From assembly GCA_947259985.1 (NCBI GenBank), contig CAMYOJ010000017.1, positions 1 through 64,000 on the forward strand: a DNA stretch of 64,000 bases. Reading direction: 5' to 3'. The translations under genes were made by a program, and so were the position numbers. Positions within the stretch are counted from its first letter, which is position 1, and every line of letters begins with the position of its first letter. Source of the stretch: an uncultured Woeseiaceae bacterium (lineage in GTDB: Bacteria; Pseudomonadota; Gammaproteobacteria; Steroidobacterales; Woeseiaceae). Below are positions 4,937 through 54,309 of the stretch, in pieces. The notes under the pieces were generated by a model. The model had not been told where the DNA came from, did no database searches, and worked only from the letters and a program-made list of their open reading frames with translations.

Positions 4937-6232
4937 TCACGAAGCAGCCGCGTTCATGTAATCCTTGAACGCAACCTTCTTGGTCTTGACCTTGCCATTG
5001 TCGAGAAGCCAGTCAATAGCCAGTTGTTCGACCACCATCGGCTCGACCTGTTGCATGACCTGCGGGTTGCTCATGTACATTTCAACCATATCGCCGGCGT
5101 TTTCGTAGCTGGCGCACATTTCCTCGACGCGCTCGCGCAACATCGCCTCGTCGGCCTTGAGTTGCTGATCTGAGATCACCTGGCCCAGCAGCAGCCCGAG
5201 ACGCACGCGCTTGTCCGCCGCCTCGGAGAAGTTCTCGATTGGCGGTGCCTGGTCGTGATCCTCGATGCCCATGCGCTGCATCGCTTCGTGCTGCATCGAG
5301 TGCGCCTCGCGATGCGCCAACGCCTGCGGGATATCGATCGGGTTGGCCGCCAGCAAGGCCTCCATGACCTGTTCACGCACGTCGCTCTTGATCTTCTGAT
5401 CGGCTTCGCGCTCCATGTTCTCGCGCACATCCGTCATGAATTGCTCGATGCCGCCGTCGGTCACATTGAACATCTCGGCGAGTTCATCGTTGATCTCGGG
5501 AAGTACCTGTTCCTCGACACGGTGCGTCTTGATCGAGAAGTCTGCCTTCTTGCCGGCAAGATCCGGCGCATGGTATTCCTTCGGGAACTTCACCTTGAAG
5601 GTCTTCTCGTCACCGGCCTCGATGCCCATGAGGCCTTTCTCGAAGTCGGGCAGCATCTGGCCCTCGCCGAGAATCACAGGAATCTCGGTGCCCTGCCCGC
5701 CCTGGAACGCCTCGCCGTCGAGCTCGCCATGAAAGTCCACGATGACGCGGTCGCCGTCCTTGCTCTTGCGATCGACAGTCTCCCAGGTCGCCTTCTGCTT
5801 CCTGAGGCTTGTCAGCATGTCATCAAGATCATCGTCGCCGATCGTGACCTCGGATTTCTCGACCTTGATCTTGTCGAGACCCTTGAGTTCGATCTCGGGC
5901 ATAACCTCGAATGTGGCCACGAACGTAAACGTCTTGCCGTCCTCGTCCTCGGTCTCGATCTTCGGGCCGCCAGCCGGATTCAGCTTCTCCTGCACCACGG
6001 CATCCGAATAGCTCTTCTGCAGCACCTCGCTCAGCACTTCCTGGCGGACTTGCTTGCCATAACGCTGCTTTACGACCTTGGCCGGGATCTTGCCGGGCCG
6101 GAATCCCTTGATCTTGGCGGTCCGGCCAACTGACTTCAGGCGCGAATCCACTTGTTGTTCAATTGCTTCGATGGGCAGCTCCACGCGCATGCGACGCTCC
6201 AGAGCACCTGTCGACTCGACAGTGACGTTCAT
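4937..6232 (-). CDS. tig: trigger factor, ribosome-associated chaperone
   Basis: Trigger factor binds at the peptide exit tunnel and shields nascent chains; it also has peptidyl-prolyl isomerase activity. The 431 aa product has the three expected parts: an N-terminal ribosome-binding domain with the GFRPGK signature at residues 43-48, an FKBP-type isomerase domain at about 160-245 (GDRVIVDFHG through ADFSIKTHRVEE), and a long helical C-terminal arm. It heads the clpP-clpX-lon run and lies 45 bp after tRNA-Leu on the same strand, in an AT-rich gap. Confidence 0.97.
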   Translation of the reverse strand: MNVTVESTGALERRMRVELPIEAIEQQVDSRLKSVGRTAKIKGFRPGKIPAKVVKQRYGKQVRQEVLSEVLQKSYSDAVVQEKLNPAGGPKIETEDEDGKTFTFVATFEVMPEIELKGLDKIKVEKSEVTIGDDDLDDMLTSLRKQKATWETVDRKSKDGDRVIVDFHGELDGEAFQGGQGTEIPVILGEGQMLPDFEKGLMGIEAGDEKTFKVKFPKEYHAPDLAGKKADFSIKTHRVEEQVLPEINDELAEMFNVTDGGIEQFMTDVRENMEREADQKIKSDVREQVMEALLAANPIDIPQALAHREAHSMQHEAMQRMGIEDHDQAPPIENFSEAADKRVRLGLLLGQVISDQQLKADEAMLRERVEEMCASYENAGDMVEMYMSNPQVMQQVEPMVVEQLAIDWLLDNGKVKTKKVAFKDYMNAAAS

Positions 6233-9653: not shown

Positions 9654-10376
9654 GTGACCACGCTCTTCATTTCGGATCTGCATCTCGAGGACGACCGGCC
9701 CGAGATCGGCCGGCAGTTCGTGAGCTTCCTCGAAGGCGAGGCCAGGGCCGCCGAAGCGCTTTACATCCTGGGCGATCTGTTCGAGTACTGGGTCGGGGAC
9801 GACGATCCGAATCCACATTACGCGCTCATGAAGAAGGCCATGCGGGAACTGGCGGACACAGGGGTCCCGGTTTTCTTCATGCACGGCAACCGCGACTTCA
9901 TGATCGGCGAGCAGTTTGCCACGGAGACGGGCGCGGTATTACTGCCGGACCCCGAGCCCGTCGAGCTCTACGGAACGAAAGTCCTCTTGAGCCACGGCGA
10001 CGCGCTGTGTACCGACGACACGCACTATCAGCAGATGCGCCAGATGACACGCGATCCCGAGTGGCAGGCCATGATGCGTGCAAAACCGCTCGAGGAACGT
10101 ATCGCGATCGCCGAGCAAGCGAGGCAACAGAGCCAGGAATACAATGCCGCCGTTGACGAGGAAATCATGGATGTGAACGGCGAAGCCGTGGTCGACACGA
10201 TTCGTGAACATGACGTCGAGGTGCTGCTGCATGGGCATACGCATCGCCCGGGCGTGCACGAGATCGACCTCGAGGACAGGATCGCAAAACGCATCGTCCT
10301 CGGCGACTGGTACGAACATGGCAGCGTTGTGCGCTGGGACGGCAACGGCCCACGCCTCGAAGTCATGCCCCGCTAA
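9654..10376 (+). CDS. lpxH: UDP-2,3-diacylglucosamine diphosphatase
   Basis: LpxH hydrolyses UDP-2,3-diacylglucosamine to lipid X and UMP, an early step of lipid A synthesis on the cytosolic face of the inner membrane. The 240 aa calcineurin-like phosphoesterase keeps all metal ligands in the same positions as E. coli: D8, H10, D41, N79, H114, H195 and H197. Initiation is at GTG 9654, four bases after the cyclophilin stop. A palindromic element follows within about ten bases of the stop. Confidence 0.96.
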   Translation: MTTLFISDLHLEDDRPEIGRQFVSFLEGEARAAEALYILGDLFEYWVGDDDPNPHYALMKKAMRELADTGVPVFFMHGNRDFMIGEQFATETGAVLLPDPEPVELYGTKVLLSHGDALCTDDTHYQQMRQMTRDPEWQAMMRAKPLEERIAIAEQARQQSQEYNAAVDEEIMDVNGEAVVDTIREHDVEVLLHGHTHRPGVHEIDLEDRIAKRIVLGDWYEHGSVVRWDGNGPRLEVMPR

Positions 10377-10386
10377 GAGAAGAGGA

Positions 10387-10462
10387 AGAATTAGGGGGAC
10401 AGTGACCTAATCAAGGTTAGGTCACTGTCCCCCTAATTCTAGGTCACTGTCCCCCTAATTCT
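10387..10462. repeat. REP-like palindromic element 1 (inverted repeat plus extra right arm)
   Basis: A perfect 24 bp inverted repeat (10387-10410 and 10417-10440) with a 6 nt loop; the arm reads AGAATTAGGGGGACAGTGAC and continues CTAA. A third copy of the right arm follows directly in tandem (10440-10462). It fills the gap between the convergent genes lpxH and miaE. The arm is shared with element 3 at 40124 and, in its outer part, with element 2 at 32993. The form suits a REP/BIME sequence mobilised by an IS200-like REP-associated tyrosine transposase; no such transposase is in the window. Confidence 0.85.
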
Positions 10463-10467
10463 TTTCC

Positions 10468-11088
10468 TTAATTTAGCGGTAGCCCCGAATGGAAACGGAA
10501 CTCGGGGTCCGGGTCTGCGATCAGCGCAGACTCGATTGCCTTTAGTTCGTCGAGCCGTGCCTCGATTTCCTCGTCGCCGACGCCGCATTCCGATTTCGCG
10601 AACGCGATGTAATGCTCAAAATGGCGTGCCTCCGAGGCCAGCAGTCCACTGTAAAAACGGCCCAGCTTGTCGGGTAATCGCGGCGCGATTCTTGCGAAGC
10701 GCTCACAGGAGCGCGCCTCGATCAGCGCGCCGATCAACAAGAGATCGAGCAACTTCCAGGGCTCCTCGGGACGCACCGCTTCGCGCAGGCGGCCCGCATA
10801 GCGCGACGCGCTCAGGCGCTCGAACGGAATCTCCATATCGTTCATGATCGAACGCACCTGCTCGAAGTGCCGCAATTCCTCACGCGCGAGCCTGGACATG
10901 CGCTGCGCCAGCGCCGCCCTGTCCGGGTAGCGATACAGGAAGCCAAGCGCGGTCGATGCCGCCTTGAGCTCGCAATTGGCATGGTCGAGCAACATCTCCG
11001 GAAGGCGGTCACACGCCGCATCGAGCCACGCCTCGGGCGTCGCCGTCTCGAGAAACGCATCAATAGCCGGAGGTACGGCTACAGCCAT
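10468..11088 (-). CDS. miaE: tRNA-(2-methylthio-N6-isopentenyladenosine37) hydroxylase MiaE
   Basis: MiaE is a di-iron monooxygenase that hydroxylates the isopentenyl group of ms2i6A37 in tRNAs reading UNN codons. At 206 aa it is close to family length, and the carboxylate-bridged di-iron ligands are visible: E40, E71xxH74, E124 and E153xxH156. The start codon overlaps the end of the upstream kinase gene by ten bases, implying translational coupling. Together with the kinase it follows purF on the same strand. Confidence 0.93.
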   Translation of the reverse strand: MAVAVPPAIDAFLETATPEAWLDAACDRLPEMLLDHANCELKAASTALGFLYRYPDRAALAQRMSRLAREELRHFEQVRSIMNDMEIPFERLSASRYAGRLREAVRPEEPWKLLDLLLIGALIEARSCERFARIAPRLPDKLGRFYSGLLASEARHFEHYIAFAKSECGVGDEEIEARLDELKAIESALIADPDPEFRFHSGLPLN

Positions 11089-30877: not shown

Positions 30878-30893
30878 TGTGATGTGCGTCACA
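30878..30893 (+). promoter_or_regulatory. CRP/Vfr-type binding site
   Basis: The sequence TGTGATGTGCGTCACA is a perfect match to the CRP consensus TGTGA-N6-TCACA. It lies 35 bp after the FimX-like stop and 120 bp before the proposed start of the FimV-like gene. A TAGAAT at 30940-30945 could be the -10 box, placing the site about 66 bp upstream of the start, near the usual class I distance. In Pseudomonas, Vfr controls type IV pilus genes. Confidence 0.7.
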
Positions 30894-31012
30894 CTCCGTT
30901 TGCGGAACCAAGCATTAACGACCGGCGACGCGCAAAACATAGAATTGGTTCATATCTAGGAAAGCAAGCTGATGACGCGCCGCCCAACGCCGCGCCAGTG
31001 GGGTACCTGATC

Positions 31013-32986
31013 GTGAAAAAAGCACCTGCCAAGCAAAACCGATTCGTCCGTATCGCCAGGCACAAACACCTGTTGCCTCTTTTTGCGGCTGGCGGCAGCC
31101 TTGCCGCGGGACCGGTCAACGCCATTGAACTCGGCGACGTCGTGGTGCAATCGCGGCTTGGACAGCCATTGCGCGCGAGTATTGCGTATGCCCTGGCGCC
31201 GAACGAAGAAATCTCGGAGAGCTGCCTGGCGCTCGGTCGCTCGGCGAGCGGACTGCCGGGCATCGGCCGCGCAACCCTCAGGGTCGCCGACGGCAGGATT
31301 CTCCTGAGCAGCCAATCGCCACTGCGTGAGCCAATGGTAGGTGCACGCGTGGTTGTTAATTGCCCCTACACGCCGAACCTGAGCCGCGATTACATGATGT
31401 TCATCGATCCGGCCGAACCCGCATACGAAAGGACGCCAGCTGCCGCGGCCGCGCCCACGGCGCCTGTTGTCGCCGCCGTGACGCCGCGGGCAGCCGCCCC
31501 GGCCGCCAATCGCGAGCCGATTGGCAAGTCGACACGCTACCAAGTGAAGCCCGGAGACTCGCTGTCTGTCATCGCCCAGCGCATCGAGAATCGCCCTGCG
31601 GGACTCTGGCCGGCCGTAAACGCTATTTTCGCGGCTAACCCCGAGGCGTTCATGGACAACGACCCGAACAAGCTCAAAGCGGGCAGCTGGCTGGAAATTC
31701 CGAGTTTCGACGGCAGCGAGCCTGTGGTCACATCGGCCGATCCAATTGCAGAGCCCGCACCGCAAGCGTCGGCGTACAACGGGTTTGAAGAAGAGACCTC
31801 CGATCCGGCCACGCAACAGGTTGTCGATGTCGACAACACGACGTCTTTCGAGACCGAGGCGGCCGTGGCAAGTACCATCGAAGCGCCTGTCGTCGATGAG
31901 ACGACGGACGCAACCAGCGACTTGCGCCCGGGCGACATTATTCTCGACGACGCGACTGTTGAAGCTACCGCCAGGCAGACAATCGTCATTCCCGACACGG
32001 AACTCGACGGCCCTGAGACGACGTCATCCTCCCCCAACGTGCCGACGGCTGTCATCAATACGAGCGGTTCGGCCGAGGCGTCAAAGTCGTCCTGGCTCCT
32101 GTGGTTAGCCGGAGGCGGTCTGGCCATCATCATCGCGCTGCTGCTGTTCGGTAGCCGACTGCGCAGGCGTCCGGCCCCCATGGGGACCGTCGGCATGCCG
32201 GGTGAGCTTGCAGTCGAGGACACCGAGAGCATCGAGCCAATAGTCGATGACGAGTACGACCTCGATGACGACTCCCCGACAGCAGAAAACCTGGCGCTCG
32301 ATGCTGACCTGTTTGTCGGCACGGGCCTCGAGGAAGGGACCGACATGGAGGTCGCTGAAGACTTCGGATTCTCAGGCCCGACAGAAGTCGATATGGAGCT
32401 TCCGCCCGACCCCGAGGCGCCTGCCGCAACGATGGAGACGGATATCATTCCGCCCGTGCATACTGACGGACATTCCATCCTCGAGAGCGAAATTCTGCCT
32501 GACGACGACGACTACGACATGTCGGTCATCGTCGACGCTACCAAGATGCCGCACCCTGAAGACGTGACGGAACGAGACCTCCAGGCGATCGAAGTTGACG
32601 CAGCAGACGATAATGTCAGCACCGACAGCTATACGATCAACCGCGAGGCGGATTTCGACATACTCGAGCAGGACTACGAGGATGAGATGACGGCCACCCA
32701 GGCACTCAATAAGGAAATCGCCCGTGCGGCCGCGGAACTGGCTGAGCTCGTGGCCGACAAGGAGGACGTCACCTCCGAGAAACCGCTCGCGACCGTGACC
32801 GAACTCGATGTGACAGCACAACTGCAGCGTCGCGACGACGAAGCCACCGAATCCGACGATACCGTCGAAAGCGAAGCGCCGACTGTGAACACCTCACGCG
32901 ACGAAGAGACCGCCGAGATGCCGACGGCCGGCGACGAGGATACGGTCGAATTGGACGGCGGCAAGGTCGGCACCAGGAACGCCTGA
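31013..32986 (+). CDS. FimV-like protein with LysM domain (second paralogue)
   Basis: A 657 aa protein sharing the FimV start IELGDVVVQSRLGQPLRASI after a signal sequence, a LysM domain at about 176-232 (YQVKPGDSLSVIAQRIE), one transmembrane helix at about 360-380 and a long acidic cytoplasmic tail. GTG 31013 is preferred: it has GTGGGG upstream and leads straight into MKKAPAKQ and a signal peptide, while the longer frame from GTG 30884 begins inside the CRP site. Unlike the FimV at 18070 it lacks the C-terminal TPR-like motif. It probably works at the pole or in pilus or peptidoglycan organisation with the FimX-like protein; that is inference. Confidence 0.82.
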   Translation: MKKAPAKQNRFVRIARHKHLLPLFAAGGSLAAGPVNAIELGDVVVQSRLGQPLRASIAYALAPNEEISESCLALGRSASGLPGIGRATLRVADGRILLSSQSPLREPMVGARVVVNCPYTPNLSRDYMMFIDPAEPAYERTPAAAAAPTAPVVAAVTPRAAAPAANREPIGKSTRYQVKPGDSLSVIAQRIENRPAGLWPAVNAIFAANPEAFMDNDPNKLKAGSWLEIPSFDGSEPVVTSADPIAEPAPQASAYNGFEEETSDPATQQVVDVDNTTSFETEAAVASTIEAPVVDETTDATSDLRPGDIILDDATVEATARQTIVIPDTELDGPETTSSSPNVPTAVINTSGSAEASKSSWLLWLAGGGLAIIIALLLFGSRLRRRPAPMGTVGMPGELAVEDTESIEPIVDDEYDLDDDSPTAENLALDADLFVGTGLEEGTDMEVAEDFGFSGPTEVDMELPPDPEAPAATMETDIIPPVHTDGHSILESEILPDDDDYDMSVIVDATKMPHPEDVTERDLQAIEVDAADDNVSTDSYTINREADFDILEQDYEDEMTATQALNKEIARAAAELAELVADKEDVTSEKPLATVTELDVTAQLQRRDDEATESDDTVESEAPTVNTSRDEETAEMPTAGDEDTVELDGGKVGTRNA

Positions 32987-32992
32987 TATTTA

Positions 32993-33076
32993 GGGGACAT
33001 TCTACTTTACTCTCACGAGAGTAAAGTAGAATGTCCCCTTTATGCTTTATGAGAGTTAAGTAAACTGTCCCTTAAA
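32993..33076. repeat. REP-like palindromic element 2
   Basis: A perfect 22 bp inverted repeat (32993-33014 and 33017-33038) with a 2 nt loop; the arm begins GGGGACATTCTACTTTACTC. A diverged extra copy of the right arm follows at 33051-33076 (gagagttaagtaaactgtcc). The outer TAGGGGACA matches elements 1 and 3 but the inner arm differs, and the layout inverted repeat plus extra right arm is the same as in element 1. It lies between the convergent FimV-like gene and parC. Confidence 0.82.
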
Positions 33077-33092
33077 TTTGCGATCGGCTTTC

Positions 33093-35348
33093 TTATTCAA
33101 CGCCTTCTAGTCGCTCGACTTTTCGCCAGCCTTTTGGCAGCAAGCTGCCGCGCAGTGCGCGATCACCATAGTAGTCGTCGAGGTCGTCCCACTTGATCGT
33201 CATCATGCGTGTGCCCGTGTAGACCAGCAGGTTCCCGTCTTCGGGAACGACGCAGGCGGCAACCATCTTCTCGTCGCCACTCTTGTACTTCGGTCCCGGA
33301 ATATTGATCAGCTTGTTGCCCTTGCCTTTCGCGAGCTCGGGCAGCTCCTCCATTTCGAACAGCAGCAGGCGACCAATCGAGCTGACAGCCGCGATCAGGC
33401 ACTCCTTATCGCGAGGTACCAGGGACGGCACCACAGGCCTGCCACCGGCCGGCACACGCAAAACGGCCTTGCCGGCCTTGTTGCGCGAGACCAGATCACC
33501 CAGTGAGGTAATAAATCCGTAGCCCGCGTCGCTCGCGAGCAGGTATTTCTGCTCGTTATCGCCAATCATCGCGCCGCAGAACGCTGCGCCATCGGGTGGC
33601 TTGAAGCGGCTCGACAACGGCTCACCCTGCCCCCTGGCGGACGGTAGCGTGCCCGCCATGACGCTGTAGACACGACCCGTGCTGTCGATGAACATCGCCA
33701 GCTGGTTGCTGCGGCCCTGGGCGGACGCCAGGTAGCTGTCACCCGAGCGGTAATTGAGCACAATCGGATCTATCTCATGGCCCTTGGCCGCGCGCGCATA
33801 GCCCGCCTGGGACAGCACGACAGTAACCGGCTCACTCGCGACCAGCTCAGTTTCATCGAACGCCTGCGCGGCATCACGCTCGACAATCTCGGTCCTGCGC
33901 GCATCACCATAGGCTTCGGCATCTTCGAGAATTTCCTTCTTGATCAGCGTCTTCAGCCGTGCGGCACTCTTGAGGATCTTCTCGAGCACGTCGCGCTCTT
34001 GCTGTAGTTCCTCCTGCTCTCCCTTGATCTTGAACTCCTCGAGCTTGGCGAGATTGCGGAGTCGCAGATTGAGAATCGCCTCGGCCTGCACGTCGCTGAG
34101 CTTGAAGCGTTTCATGAGGACCGGTTTCGGTTCGTCTTCCTCGCGGATAATCGCTATGACCTCATCGATGTTGAGATAGGCAACCAGCAATCCGTCGAGG
34201 ATGTGCAGTCTGTCCATGACGATCTGCAGGCGGTGGCCGAGACGGTTCTTCACAGTCTCCTTGCGGAACTTGAGCCACTCCTTGAGCATCTCGACGAGAT
34301 TGAACATGCGCGGCCGGCCGTCGAGCGCGATGACGTTCATGTTTACGCGTAATGTGCGCTCGAGCGAGGTCGTCGAGAACAGGTGCGACATGAGCTGGTC
34401 GACGTCGACGCCACGTTTCTTGCTGATGACCAGCCGCGTCGGGTCCTCGTGATCCGACTCGTCGCGCAGGTCATCGACCTGCGGCAGCTTCTTGTTGCGC
34501 ATTTGAGCCGCGATCTGCTCCTGCACTTTTGCGCCCGAAATTTGATGCGGCAACGATGTAACGACAATGTCGCTGCCCTCCAGCTTGTAAGCGGCGCGCA
34601 GCCGCAGCGTGCCGCTGCCCGTCGTATAGATCTCCTTGATGTCTTCCCGAGGTGAAACGAGCTCGCCGCCGGTCGGGAAATCGGGCCCCTTGACGTGCTT
34701 CATGAGCTGCGCCACGGTCGCCTTCGGATTGTCAATCAGGTGTACGAGGGCGCTGGCGACCTCGTTGAGATTGTGCGGTGGCACATCAGTCGACATACCA
34801 ACCGCAATTCCCGTTGTGCCGTTGAGCAACAGGTTGGGCAGGCGCGCCGGTAAAACGACGGGCTCCTTGAGCGTGCCGTCGAAATTCGGCGTCCAGTCGA
34901 CCGTGCCCTGCCCGAGTTCCTGCAACAGGCTTTTCGCGTACGGCGCAAGACGCGATTCGGTATAGCGCATCGCCGCGAACGATTTCGGGTCGTCCGTTGA
35001 CCCCCAGTTACCCTGCCCGATCACAATCGGGTAGCGATACGAAAAACCCTGCGCCATGAGCACCATGGCTTCGTAACAGGCGGAATCACCGTGAGGGTGG
35101 AACTTGCCGATGACGTCGCCGACGGTGCGCGCCGACTTCTTGGGCTTGGACGTTGACGACAAACCCAGCTCGCTCATCGCGTAGATGATGCGTCGTTGCA
35201 CGGGCTTCAGACCATCACCTACCTGCGGCAGCGCGCGATCGAGAATGACGTACATGGAGTAGTCGAGATACGCCCGCTCGGTGTACTCCTTGAGCGGCTG
35301 TTGTTCGACGCCTTCGAGATTCAGACTGTTCTGCATTTGAGAGCCCAT
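33093..35348 (-). CDS. parC: DNA topoisomerase IV subunit A
   Basis: ParC with ParE decatenates daughter chromosomes. The 751 aa protein has the catalytic tyrosine Y129 in [12 protein letters not shown] and the quinolone-resistance region [10 protein letters not shown] with wild-type S89 and E93, so no resistance substitution at those sites. The C-terminal pinwheel domain follows from about residue 500. It starts 6 bp after parE, in one operon. Confidence 0.97.
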
Positions 35349-39885: not shown

Positions 39886-40119
39886 ATGGGTTCTGCCAAA
39901 AAATTCAACCTCGAAAGGTCGCTTTCCGAACTCGAGGAACTCGTCGAGGAACTCGAATCCGGTGACTTGCCGCTCGACAAGGCGATGAAGAAGTTCGAGG
40001 CCGGCATCAAGCTCACGCGCGGCTGCCAGGCCGCACTCAAGGAAGCCGAACAAAAAGTCGAAATTCTCTTGAAGAGCGCCGGCGACGAACAACTCGAGGA
40101 TTTCGAGATCGAAGATTGA
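39886..40119 (+). CDS. xseB: exodeoxyribonuclease VII small subunit
   Basis: XseB is the small coiled-coil subunit of exonuclease VII, a single-strand DNA exonuclease. The 77 aa product has the family pattern FNLERSLSELEELVEELESG followed by LPLDKAMKKFEAGIKL. In most Gammaproteobacteria xseB is followed by ispA and dxs; here it stands alone, followed by a palindromic element and a convergent peptidase. Confidence 0.93.
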   Translation: MGSAKKFNLERSLSELEELVEELESGDLPLDKAMKKFEAGIKLTRGCQAALKEAEQKVEILLKSAGDEQLEDFEIED

Positions 40120-40123
40120 TAAA

Positions 40124-40187
40124 AGGAATTAGGGGGACAGTGACCTAAACTCGGATCCGAGTTTAGGTCACTGTCCCCCTAATTCCT
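40124..40187. repeat. REP-like palindromic element 3 (perfect 64 bp palindrome)
   Basis: A perfect palindrome of 64 bp centred on GGATCC. Its arm reads AGGAATTAGGGGGACAGTGA and continues CCTAAACTCG, sharing GAATTAGGGGGACAGTGACC and the next TAA with element 1. Such a long intact palindrome suggests recent arrival. It lies between the convergent xseB and M20 peptidase genes, four bases after the xseB stop. Confidence 0.85.
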
Positions 40188-40200
40188 GTCTCTATTGTTG

Positions 40201-41514
40201 TTACTCGGCCATCAGGGTCGTCAGCGCAACAACGGTTGATTCAACACCCGAGACAATAGCCGGTTCGGGGGAGATCTTGAATAACGGCGAGTGATGGCTC
40301 GGTACCGGCGTACCGCCGGCCATTTCCGTATCGAAATCTTCCTGCGGCGTACCGCCGATCGCCCAGTAGACACTGCGAATATCGGGGTCCTGGGCAAAGA
40401 ATGGAAAGTCCTCGGCACCCATGCCTTTGGTCGGGATATCGACGACCGCGTCGTCACCCATTGCTTCCGCCCACGCGACCTTCAGGCGGCGCGCGAGCGC
40501 CGCATCGTTGTTCACGGGCGGGACACTCTCGTTCGAGATGATGACCTCGGGCAACCTGTCTTCGGGCAGACCGGCAACGCGACCCATATTCTCGGCGATG
40601 CGCTTGATGCCGTTCAACAGGACGTCGCGTGTCTCGACGCTCGTGTTGCGCACCGTCAGCTGCAGGTGCGCGCGGTCCGAGATGATGTTGTGCTTGGTGC
40701 CCGAATGGAAGGACCCCACAGTCACGACGCCGGGATCGCGCGGCGAAAGTTCCCTCGATACGAGCGTCTGCAGTGCCAGCACGATCTGGCTGCCGAGTAC
40801 GATCGGGTCCTTGCCGCGGTGCGGGCTCGCGCCGTGCGCGCCGACCCCGTGGATGATGATGTCGACCGTATCGGCGCCGGCGTATGGACTGCCCTCCTGG
40901 ACATTGATGACGCCCGCGACGTCGCTCGACGAGACGTGAAAGGCGAGCGCGTAATCGGGTTGCCCGAAGCGCTCCCAGATGCCATCTTCGCGCATCGCCC
41001 GGGCACCCAGCACGCGCTCCTCGGCGGGCTGCACCACGAGCATTAGCGTGCCCTGCCATTCGTCCTTGCGGGCCGCCATCTGCCGGGCCGTGCCTACGAG
41101 GCTCGTGATGTGCACGTCGTGACCGCAGGCATGCATCGTGAATACTTCATTGCCCGTGATCGGATCGATCTGCTTCGCGCGTGATGCGTTGTCGAGGCCC
41201 GATTTCTCTTCGACAGGCAATCCGTCCATATCCGCGCGCATCATGACGAGCGGACCCTCGCCATTCTCGAGCATTGCGACCAGGCCCGTGCCACCGACGT
41301 TCTCGGTCACCTCGAATCCGGCCGCGCGCAGTTCCTCGGCCATGCGCTTCGCGGTCTTGAACTCGATCGTCGAGAGCTCTGGATTGCGATGGAAAAAATC
41401 GAATAGCTGCGCCAGATGGCCATCGTAGTCTTTTTCAATCGCCTGACTGAGATCGTCGGCGAAAGCAGGTACTGCCAGCATCACCAGCGCAATCCAGGTG
41501 TAAGGCTTGATCAT
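40201..41514 (-). CDS. exported M20-family amidohydrolase/peptidase
   Basis: A 437 aa metal-dependent amidohydrolase related to hippurate and N-acyl-amino-acid hydrolases. The start MIKPYTW at 41514 leads into a signal peptide ending at about residue 19 (VPAFA), so the enzyme is periplasmic or secreted. Metal ligands are seen in HACGHDVH, the catalytic PAEE and a late HHSP; the dimerisation lid begins near HGVGAHGASPH. Its substrate is unknown. Confidence 0.9.
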   Translation of the reverse strand: MIKPYTWIALVMLAVPAFADDLSQAIEKDYDGHLAQLFDFFHRNPELSTIEFKTAKRMAEELRAAGFEVTENVGGTGLVAMLENGEGPLVMMRADMDGLPVEEKSGLDNASRAKQIDPITGNEVFTMHACGHDVHITSLVGTARQMAARKDEWQGTLMLVVQPAEERVLGARAMREDGIWERFGQPDYALAFHVSSSDVAGVINVQEGSPYAGADTVDIIIHGVGAHGASPHRGKDPIVLGSQIVLALQTLVSRELSPRDPGVVTVGSFHSGTKHNIISDRAHLQLTVRNTSVETRDVLLNGIKRIAENMGRVAGLPEDRLPEVIISNESVPPVNNDAALARRLKVAWAEAMGDDAVVDIPTKGMGAEDFPFFAQDPDIRSVYWAIGGTPQEDFDTEMAGGTPVPSHHSPLFKISPEPAIVSGVESTVVALTTLMAE

Positions 41515-53511: not shown

Positions 53512-54309
53512 ATGGCGATCGTTATAAGCGAAGATCAGGGGATGGAACACCAGCTCGAGGAGCGTATCGGCCTCGAGTGTCCATACTGCGGCGTGTACGC
53601 GCACATGAGTCCGCAGTCGGTACCGGACGCGGCATCCCTGCTGCGCGATAAACCCAAACACGTAGGCCTTGTCTACAAATGTGACGCCTGCGACGCTCCC
53701 GTTTTCCTGCGCTTCGCGGTGCGCGAATACAAGGAAAATCGCGTTGAGTTGTACCGCAACTTCATCGAGCTGGAGCGACCCAAGGAAAAATTCTCGTTTT
53801 CCTACCTGCCCAGGCACACTGAAGTGCTGTTTCGCGAGGCGCTATCGTGTTACTCGAACAACAACTTCAATGCGTTTGCATCGATGTGCCGCCGCGCATC
53901 GGTCAGTGCGTTTGACGCGCTTGGCGAGGGCGGCAAGCTCAGGGCGTTCGAGGAAGTCATGGTGGCGCAGGATATCGCCGGCATCGACGACGAATCGTTT
54001 GCGCCGATCAAGTCGGTATTATTCGGTTCCGGCCAGCACGAGGACTTGCCGCTCCTGAATCGCGATGCAGTGGATATCATTGAGCGATCGCAGTGCTACC
54101 CGATCGTTACCCGGGCGTTACGGAACATACGCATCCAGGGTCCGTCGTCGCCCCAGTCGTCCGGATGCCACGAGTTTTGCCACGCGAGCGCCACGCGTTC
54201 GGGGTGCGGCATCATGATCGTGACGCGACCGTCTTCGTTGCTGAGGCCGCAGATGCCATCGTGCGAGCCATTGGGGTTGGCCGGATATCGATCCGCGACT
54301 TCGCCGTAG
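53512..54309 (+). CDS. DUF4145-like protein, 3' end running into purL
   Basis: The frame encodes 265 aa. Residues 20-62 have a zinc ribbon (C23, C26, C57, C60), and residues 100-190 a helical region resembling DUF4145, a domain found in some restriction and stress proteins and of unknown role. From about residue 195 the frame runs antisense to the end of purL, and that tail ([12 protein letters not shown] and on) has no domain character. The gene therefore seems to have lost its normal 3' end, or it uses purL DNA for its stop. Treat the last 70 residues as doubtful. Confidence 0.6.

Follow-up and report, generated by a model that had tools for sequence, protein, structure and literature searches.

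Palindromes with GGGGACA-type ends in convergent gene gaps of a Woeseiaceae genome, probable non-autonomous units of the TIRYT type

Palindromes between convergent genes of an uncultured Woeseiaceae bacterium are very probably non-autonomous mobile units, each composed of two inverted terminal repeats of the TIRYT type and probably filtered by survival in convergent gaps. They belong to a family present throughout the genome. A transposase with the same arm class is encoded in the same assembly, the units are biased towards convergent gene ends, and the corresponding gaps of related species hold differing families. The genome is a 2.50 Mb draft of 60 contigs with a completeness of 82%. The window, i.e. 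the whole stretch of DNA that was analysed, is a 64 kb part of it.

Palindromes of the window and their genome-wide family

The window contains three palindromes with the following neighbours:

9654..10376, + strand, lpxH-like (Metallophos) gene, ending 10 nt upstream of element 1
10387..10440, element 1, arms 10387-10410 and 10417-10440 (24 nt, 100%), type GGGGACAGTGACC, between the lpxH-like gene and miaE
10440..10462, - strand, third arm of element 1, in tandem on the right
10468..11088, - strand, miaE, stop codon 5 nt past the third arm of element 1
30884..32986, + strand, FimV-like gene, start uncertain (30884 or 30998), ending 5 nt from element 2
32992..33039, element 2, 23-nt arms (100%), type GGGGACATTCTAC, between the FimV-like gene and parC
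33051..33078, - strand, half arm of the resident-transposase type adjoining element 2, outer limits approximate
33093..35348, - strand, parC
39886..40119, + strand, xseB, ending 4 nt from element 3
40124..40187, element 3, 32-nt arms (100%), type GGGGACAGTGACC, between xseB and the M20 peptidase gene
40201..41514, - strand, M20 peptidase gene, stop codon 13 nt past element 3

Pfam supports the neighbours miaE, parC, xseB and M20 peptidase, a FimV_N match and the Metallophos domain of the lpxH-like protein. The preliminary description spoke of three related palindromes. The inverted repeats are real and exact, but element 2 comes from another arm subfamily (TTCTAC). Elements 1 and 3 have the arm GAATTAGGGGGACAGTGACCTAA (GTGACC type) in common, while the arm of element 2 is AGGGGACATTCTACTTTACTCTC, followed about 20 nt further by the half arm with GGGACAGTTTACT, whose exact GTTTACT core lies at 33059-33071. 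The box GGGACA is common to all three. Since element 2 differs in subfamily and is accompanied by a half arm of a third one, the three palindromes are cousins and not copies. The reported triple occurrence of the arm in element 1, once as an added tandem right arm, was seen at 10440-10462. Folded as RNA, the three elements had z values between -7.9 and -12.6 for the + strand and between -8.2 and -12.0 for the - strand, and for each of these six folds none of 200 shuffled sequences folded equally well. An Rfam scan of the window detected five tRNAs and nothing else.

The elements had been placed within 4-11 bases of the stop codons, a range that is too narrow: the outermost arms lie 10 and 5, 5 and about 14, and 4 and 13 nt from them. 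The remaining convergent pairs had been described as gapless. This holds for a GAF-domain protein gene and efp (overlap of 8) and for an FHA protein gene and acs (4 bp), but a DUF4145/purL pair was not confirmed. The + strand ORF 53512-54309, apparently the earlier DUF4145, matched nothing in Pfam at E 0.001, and 214 of its bases overlap purL. The interval 53396/54096 may therefore be a fourth convergent gap, one without an element. The statement that every convergent junction with a gap holds an element does not extend beyond the window: by the gene calls used here, three of four gaps of at least 50 nt are occupied inside it and three of 13 in the 400 kb examined elsewhere. The statement describes a local run.

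The pattern GGGACAN{20,50}TGTCCC has 44 matches in the whole genome, compared to three for the reversed control (nested matches and one coding-type chance match counted). Arms of the GTTTACT type, searched as GGGACAGTNNACY, gave 58 exact matches on both strands, all of them GTTTACT (control 0). The TTCTRC type, GGGACATTCTRC, gave 15 (control 0), and the GTGACC type, searched as the 16-mer GGGGACAGTGACCTAA with up to two mismatches, 23 (control 2). From stretches fetched around arm matches plus the window, 45 arm clusters with at most one mismatch were obtained. Three one-mismatch clusters lying within genes were discarded. The transposase unit had given two clusters, one per flank, and counting it once reduced the convergent class from 27 to 26. 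The 41 intergenic units that remain, 26 in convergent, 11 in tandem and four in divergent junctions, all carry the box GGGACA and one of three inner sequences, and bear out the expectation of many genome copies. They stem from near-exact arm searches, degenerate copies not being sought; a one-mismatch match in a divergent gap, C14:21308-21417, is outside the 41. The fourth G is absent at 22 of 78 arm ends, some copies reading AGGGACA instead of GGGGACA. The sequence GGGGACAG in GTTTACT and GTGACC arms fits the TIR motif GGGGWSAS; TTCTRC arms, GGGGACAT, depart from it in the final position.

The GGGACA palindrome is plentiful in only nine of 36 genomes of the same genus (at least 12 matches, control 1-5). 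Two relatives in the order, G038 and G053, have their own palindrome families, GGGACATTCCCC and GGGACAGGCACC, and some of their arm ends are themselves short palindromes. An array of truncated arms, tandem CCCCTTAATT units, adjoins an element at L101 ~5046-5090.

Position at gene ends and hairpin pairing

Background junctions were taken from 464 kb, comprising the 64-kb window, chosen for the finding, and 400 kb selected irrespective of elements. Genes were called by a home-made codon model, so that single junction types can be wrong. Among 411 junctions, 68 were convergent, 275 tandem and 68 divergent. The share of convergent junctions among the units (26 of 41) exceeds this background (68/411) with p 2e-11. 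The excess persists per 3' end (26/37 versus 136/411, p 4e-6) and when the 12.6% of intergenic bases that lie in convergent junctions serve as reference (p 4e-14). A shortfall of divergent junctions alone was not significant (4 of 41 units, p 0.17). Facing 3' ends lie within 25 nt of the arm box in 52 of 65 cases, with a median of 17. Of the 11 tandem units, 10 are located within about 35 nt of a facing 3' end, two of these ends belonging to tRNA-Ser genes. The eleventh, the L108 junction, looks misclassified, and L096:12316, when its tRNA is considered, would be a convergent tRNA/protein junction. The location is thus non-random, as the preliminary description had supposed: the units sit at gene 3' ends and prefer convergent ones. 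An element is present in six of the 17 convergent gaps of at least 50 nt in the 464 kb and missing from 11. Outside the window, the 400 kb comprise seven element-bearing junctions, three convergent, two tandem and two divergent, one of the latter via a one-mismatch match. A weak replicate of the convergent bias is provided by relative G024, where 24 TTCTRC units are distributed over 11 convergent, 11 tandem and two divergent junctions (p 8e-4 against the background of that genome); convergent equals tandem there, and two of the tandem units are flanks of its own TIRYT.

Stop codons before the box are slightly in excess, with 63 of 78 versus 56.3 in shuffled sequence (21/1000) and, in G024, 29 of 48 versus 23.3 (19/1000). 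The element as a source of stop codons was rejected on this weak excess.

For 39 palindromes, pairing between the arms of one copy was compared with that between arms of different copies. The outer 8 nt form 228 pairs versus 171 expected, and arm positions 9-16 form 108 versus 80 (0/500 shuffles each); positions 17-40 showed no excess complementarity. In the inner stem, GTTTACT and TTCTRC arms covary (0/500 each), as do GTGACC arms (5/500). Outer symmetry was not significant for TTCTRC in this genome (55/500) and marginal in G024 (77 versus 69.5, 26/500). Nested copies account for part of the arm symmetry, which fits either selection on pairing or one arm being copied from its partner.

A role as shared bidirectional terminators, put forward earlier, is not borne out for intrinsic termination. 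A run of at least five T follows the stem at two of 78 exits, which makes intrinsic termination unlikely; with the U tract missing at the other 76, the elements were rejected as intrinsic terminators. Element 1 has a weak terminator-like tail on the - strand. At L098 5002-5133, two palindromes of a single convergent gap stand on either side of a separate canonical intrinsic terminator, GGGCGGCCGATGGCCGCCC with eight T after it.

Resident transposase and arm types

The sole Y1_Tnp protein found in the genome has 220 aa and belongs to the NCBIfam equivalog REP_Tyr_transpos (83 bits, cut-off 80). With an E limit of 1, Pfam, consulted for the C-terminal helix-turn-helix of TnpAREP subclass 2.1, gave just Y1_Tnp over residues 15-121, and under the same limit TnpArep 4er8 was the single relative with a solved structure. 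The transposase gene is bracketed on both sides by inverted AAGGGGACAGTTTACTTAATTG (GTTTACT arms, GGGGACAGTTTACTTAATTG), and the unit itself occupies a convergent junction. The proposed RAYT flanked by the same arm thus exists as a Y1_Tnp gene with the same arm class, but the window palindromes carry other arm types.

This TIRYT unit lies between two direct copies of 36 bp of the upstream gene's 3' end (L024 1289-1324 and 2179-2214), which differ at one position. A direct duplication is unexpected for an IS200-like element. The flanks of 42 clusters, about nt 9-98 outside the boxes, held no direct repeats of at least 10 nt. At 45 other TIRYT loci, examined incompletely at fixed coordinates with those below 3,000 bases skipped, five loci gave repeats, all resembling TIR or palindrome sequence. 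A target-site duplication was rejected; no counterpart of the 36-bp repeat was seen at the other units.

Homologues of the transposase comprised 16 loci of named genomes and matches in the genus, obtained from 41 of 61 genomes with the own genome counted, many of them weak. Inverted repeats were sought around 45 TIRYT loci by a simple script. Of the 16 named-genome loci, which span several phyla, seven have inverted GGGACA arms flanking the gene on either side; variants such as GGTGACA occur at other loci. A tree was calculated from 39 proteins with labels set by hand, six of the 45 loci being excluded and L128 used neither for arms nor for the tree. Transposases with TTCTGC (three) and TTCTCA (one) arms form one clade (support 100/100). 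GTGACC and GTGACT arms belong to a same-genus clade of 11 members (96/96), in which GGTGACAGTGACC, GGTGGCAGTCACC, GGTACCAGTTACC and similar arms also occur. The fork that holds the own transposase is unresolved; L116, a relative 69% identical to it, has GTTTAC arms as well. In this tree, the inner arm follows the transposase clade. A TIRYT flanked by GTGACC or TTCTGC arms was found solely in other genomes of the genus, and the window palindromes accordingly bear arms of TIRYT clades not found in this assembly. As the assembly is 82% complete, the transposases for GTGACC and TTCTAC arms may be missing through incompleteness alone.

The same gaps in relatives and the origin of the palindromes

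Orthologous gaps were read from the best 30 loci per search among 61 genomes, own genome included; of the 30 loci each, 24 could be used for xseB and 28 for parC. In the parC gap, FimV ends are unreliable in L249 and L250, and the gap of L264, like that of L217 for xseB, is over-long for the palindrome test. TIR-type arms occur in 6 of 29 relatives between lpxH and miaE, in 2 of 23 between xseB and the peptidase gene and in 2 of 27 between FimV and parC, i.e. at ten junctions in eight relatives. Five of the lpxH/miaE cases are palindromes, with TTCTGC arms in G024 and G067, GGGGTCGAACCG in G076, GGTGACAGTCACC in G065 and GTACCGGACACCC in G064. The sixth, G023, has a lone GTTTAC arm, whose outer TTAA gives both stop codons. 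The xseB gap is occupied by TTCTGC in G024 and GTTTAC in G023, the parC gap by TTCTGC in G029 and GGGGTCAGACC in G035. Another palindrome is found between lpxH and miaE in G078 and, decayed, in G066. Gaps without such a palindrome number 21 of 29 for lpxH/miaE, 17 of 23 for xseB/peptidase and 25 of 27 for FimV/parC (a few not testable); in 13 of these 21 lpxH/miaE cases the genes overlap or are at most 15 nt apart.

The arm equals that of a TIRYT in the same genome at four of the ten junctions (G024 twice, G064, G076) and mismatches the TIRYT fetched from that genome at three (G023 twice, G065). None was fetched for G067, one of two for G029 and one of three for G035, without a match. Ten junctions in eight relatives with several TIR families make these convergent gaps look like recurrent landing sites, and different families in one gap argue for independent arrivals. 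The closest relatives share occupied junctions, which may go back to one old insertion later exchanged for another family. Among the loci read, whose flanking proteins are about 65-93% identical, no empty/filled pair at near identity was present.

A different hairpin of 66-78 nt, CTTCTTC...CACAGGCGAA, was observed in the xseB/peptidase gap of five relatives (L199, L200, L205, L211, L222); the count over 23 relatives lists four. Its inner part and loop are partly conserved. The outer stems are complementary at 22 of 22 positions within each genome and match at 3-6 of 22 between genomes (13 in one pair). Rfam yielded 14 matches on the relatives' hairpins, nearly all to microRNA models and all below the gathering score; they were taken as chance. 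The exact core pattern occurs in two of 61 genomes (G060, G080) with one match each, so the hairpin looks vertically inherited and non-mobile.

The palindromes are interpreted as inverted terminal repeats of Y1/HUH, IS200-like transposons in a REPIN-like layout with a GGGGACA terminus. A TIRYT would recognize the GGGGACA end together with the clade-specific inner arm and would move the foldback dimer in trans as single-stranded hairpin DNA. New copies would persist chiefly where nothing is interrupted, downstream of stop codons and most of all within short convergent gaps, where an arm may abut or even provide the stop codons. Such filtering by survival, rather than targeted insertion, probably produced the observed location.

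Insertion preference, with the transposase directed to 3' ends or to existing hairpins such as terminator loops and older palindromes, is possible, if somewhat unlikely. Nested copies whose outer sequence is symmetric (L096:5019, L099:8652, L089:5030, L100:2441) and the complementarity beyond the core at positions 9-16 agree with it. However, the signal ends before positions 17-40, outer symmetry is marginal in G024 and not significant for TTCTRC, and the element-free gaps of relatives mostly lack a hairpin. It is doubtful that the palindromes, once recruited from mobile ones, are now kept by selection as bidirectional 3'-end hairpins of the host, forming transcript ends or blocking 3'-5' exonucleases. 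Long hairpins stable on both strands and adjoining stop codons would suit this role, as would the convergent excess per 3' end, the better pairing of arms within than between copies, and the unrelated hairpins in the same gaps across species, one of them outside the GGGGACA family. The rarity of T runs, the large share of relatives' gaps without such a palindrome, the 11 of 17 own convergent gaps without an element and the four units in divergent junctions all speak against it. A broader form, in which convergent gaps of the genus are slots for interchangeable hairpins because any hairpin benefits both genes, is unlikely. The occupants, repeatedly installed and retained, would be unrelated mobile palindromes and, in one gap, a hairpin that seems not to be mobile, its loop conserved and its stem drifting freely yet perfectly paired; the benefit may lie, for example, in blocking 3' decay or antisense read-through.

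Classic GTAG REP/REPIN elements share the inverted dimers, the intergenic 3' location and the REP-type tyrosine transposase. Such an assignment is highly improbable, and was rejected: GTAG is absent from the 8 nt outside the box at all 78 arm ends, GTAG/CTAC appears inside three of 39 palindromes, all of TTCTAC type, and the arm ends bear the TIRYT motif. Of the earlier proposal of REP-like mobile repeats, the mobile-type family with its transposase stands, but the repeats are TIRYT-type TIRs (GGGGWSAS) and not GTAG REPs.

TIRYT repeats are little studied, and the term is rare in the open-access literature searched. Several TIRYT clades with their own arms, and gaps that are empty or differently filled by species, constitute a natural experiment on why REP-like repeats occupy gene ends, be it targeting, survival or benefit. 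No report of the same convergent gap holding different TIR families across species was found in the open-access literature.

In REPINs and RAYTs, two inverted arms with a variable spacer go together with a Y1 transposase. The palindromes described here are alike in this layout, but lack the GTAG foot, and their two arms jointly form the hairpin. GTAG/CGTC REPs favour unidirectional and convergent junctions, most convergent REPs of two genomes are no more than 20 bp away from either 3' end, and GTAG REPs often provide the stop codon (available parts of PMC3733652). The junction preference is similar, but the terminal motif differs. The accessible text of PMC1525189 describes REPs located between convergent genes as well as insertion of an IS at the axis of symmetry in a REP hairpin; that of PMC8266576 describes a role of GTAG for TnpAREP. 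Closest are TIRtrons and TIRYTs: TIRYT genes, the motif GGGGWSAS and TIR dimers appear in the available parts of PMC3733652, and most TIRYTs were assigned to TnpAREP subclass 2.1 (accessible sections of PMC6006769). As there, a Y1 gene lies between inverted repeats, many of them GGGGWSAS, which GGGGACAG fits, and TIRs have spread also as dimers and clusters. The filling of the same convergent gaps by different families in related species is a difference, being absent from the available parts of both papers. The present case further differs in its genome, where three arm subfamilies coexist with one resident transposase.
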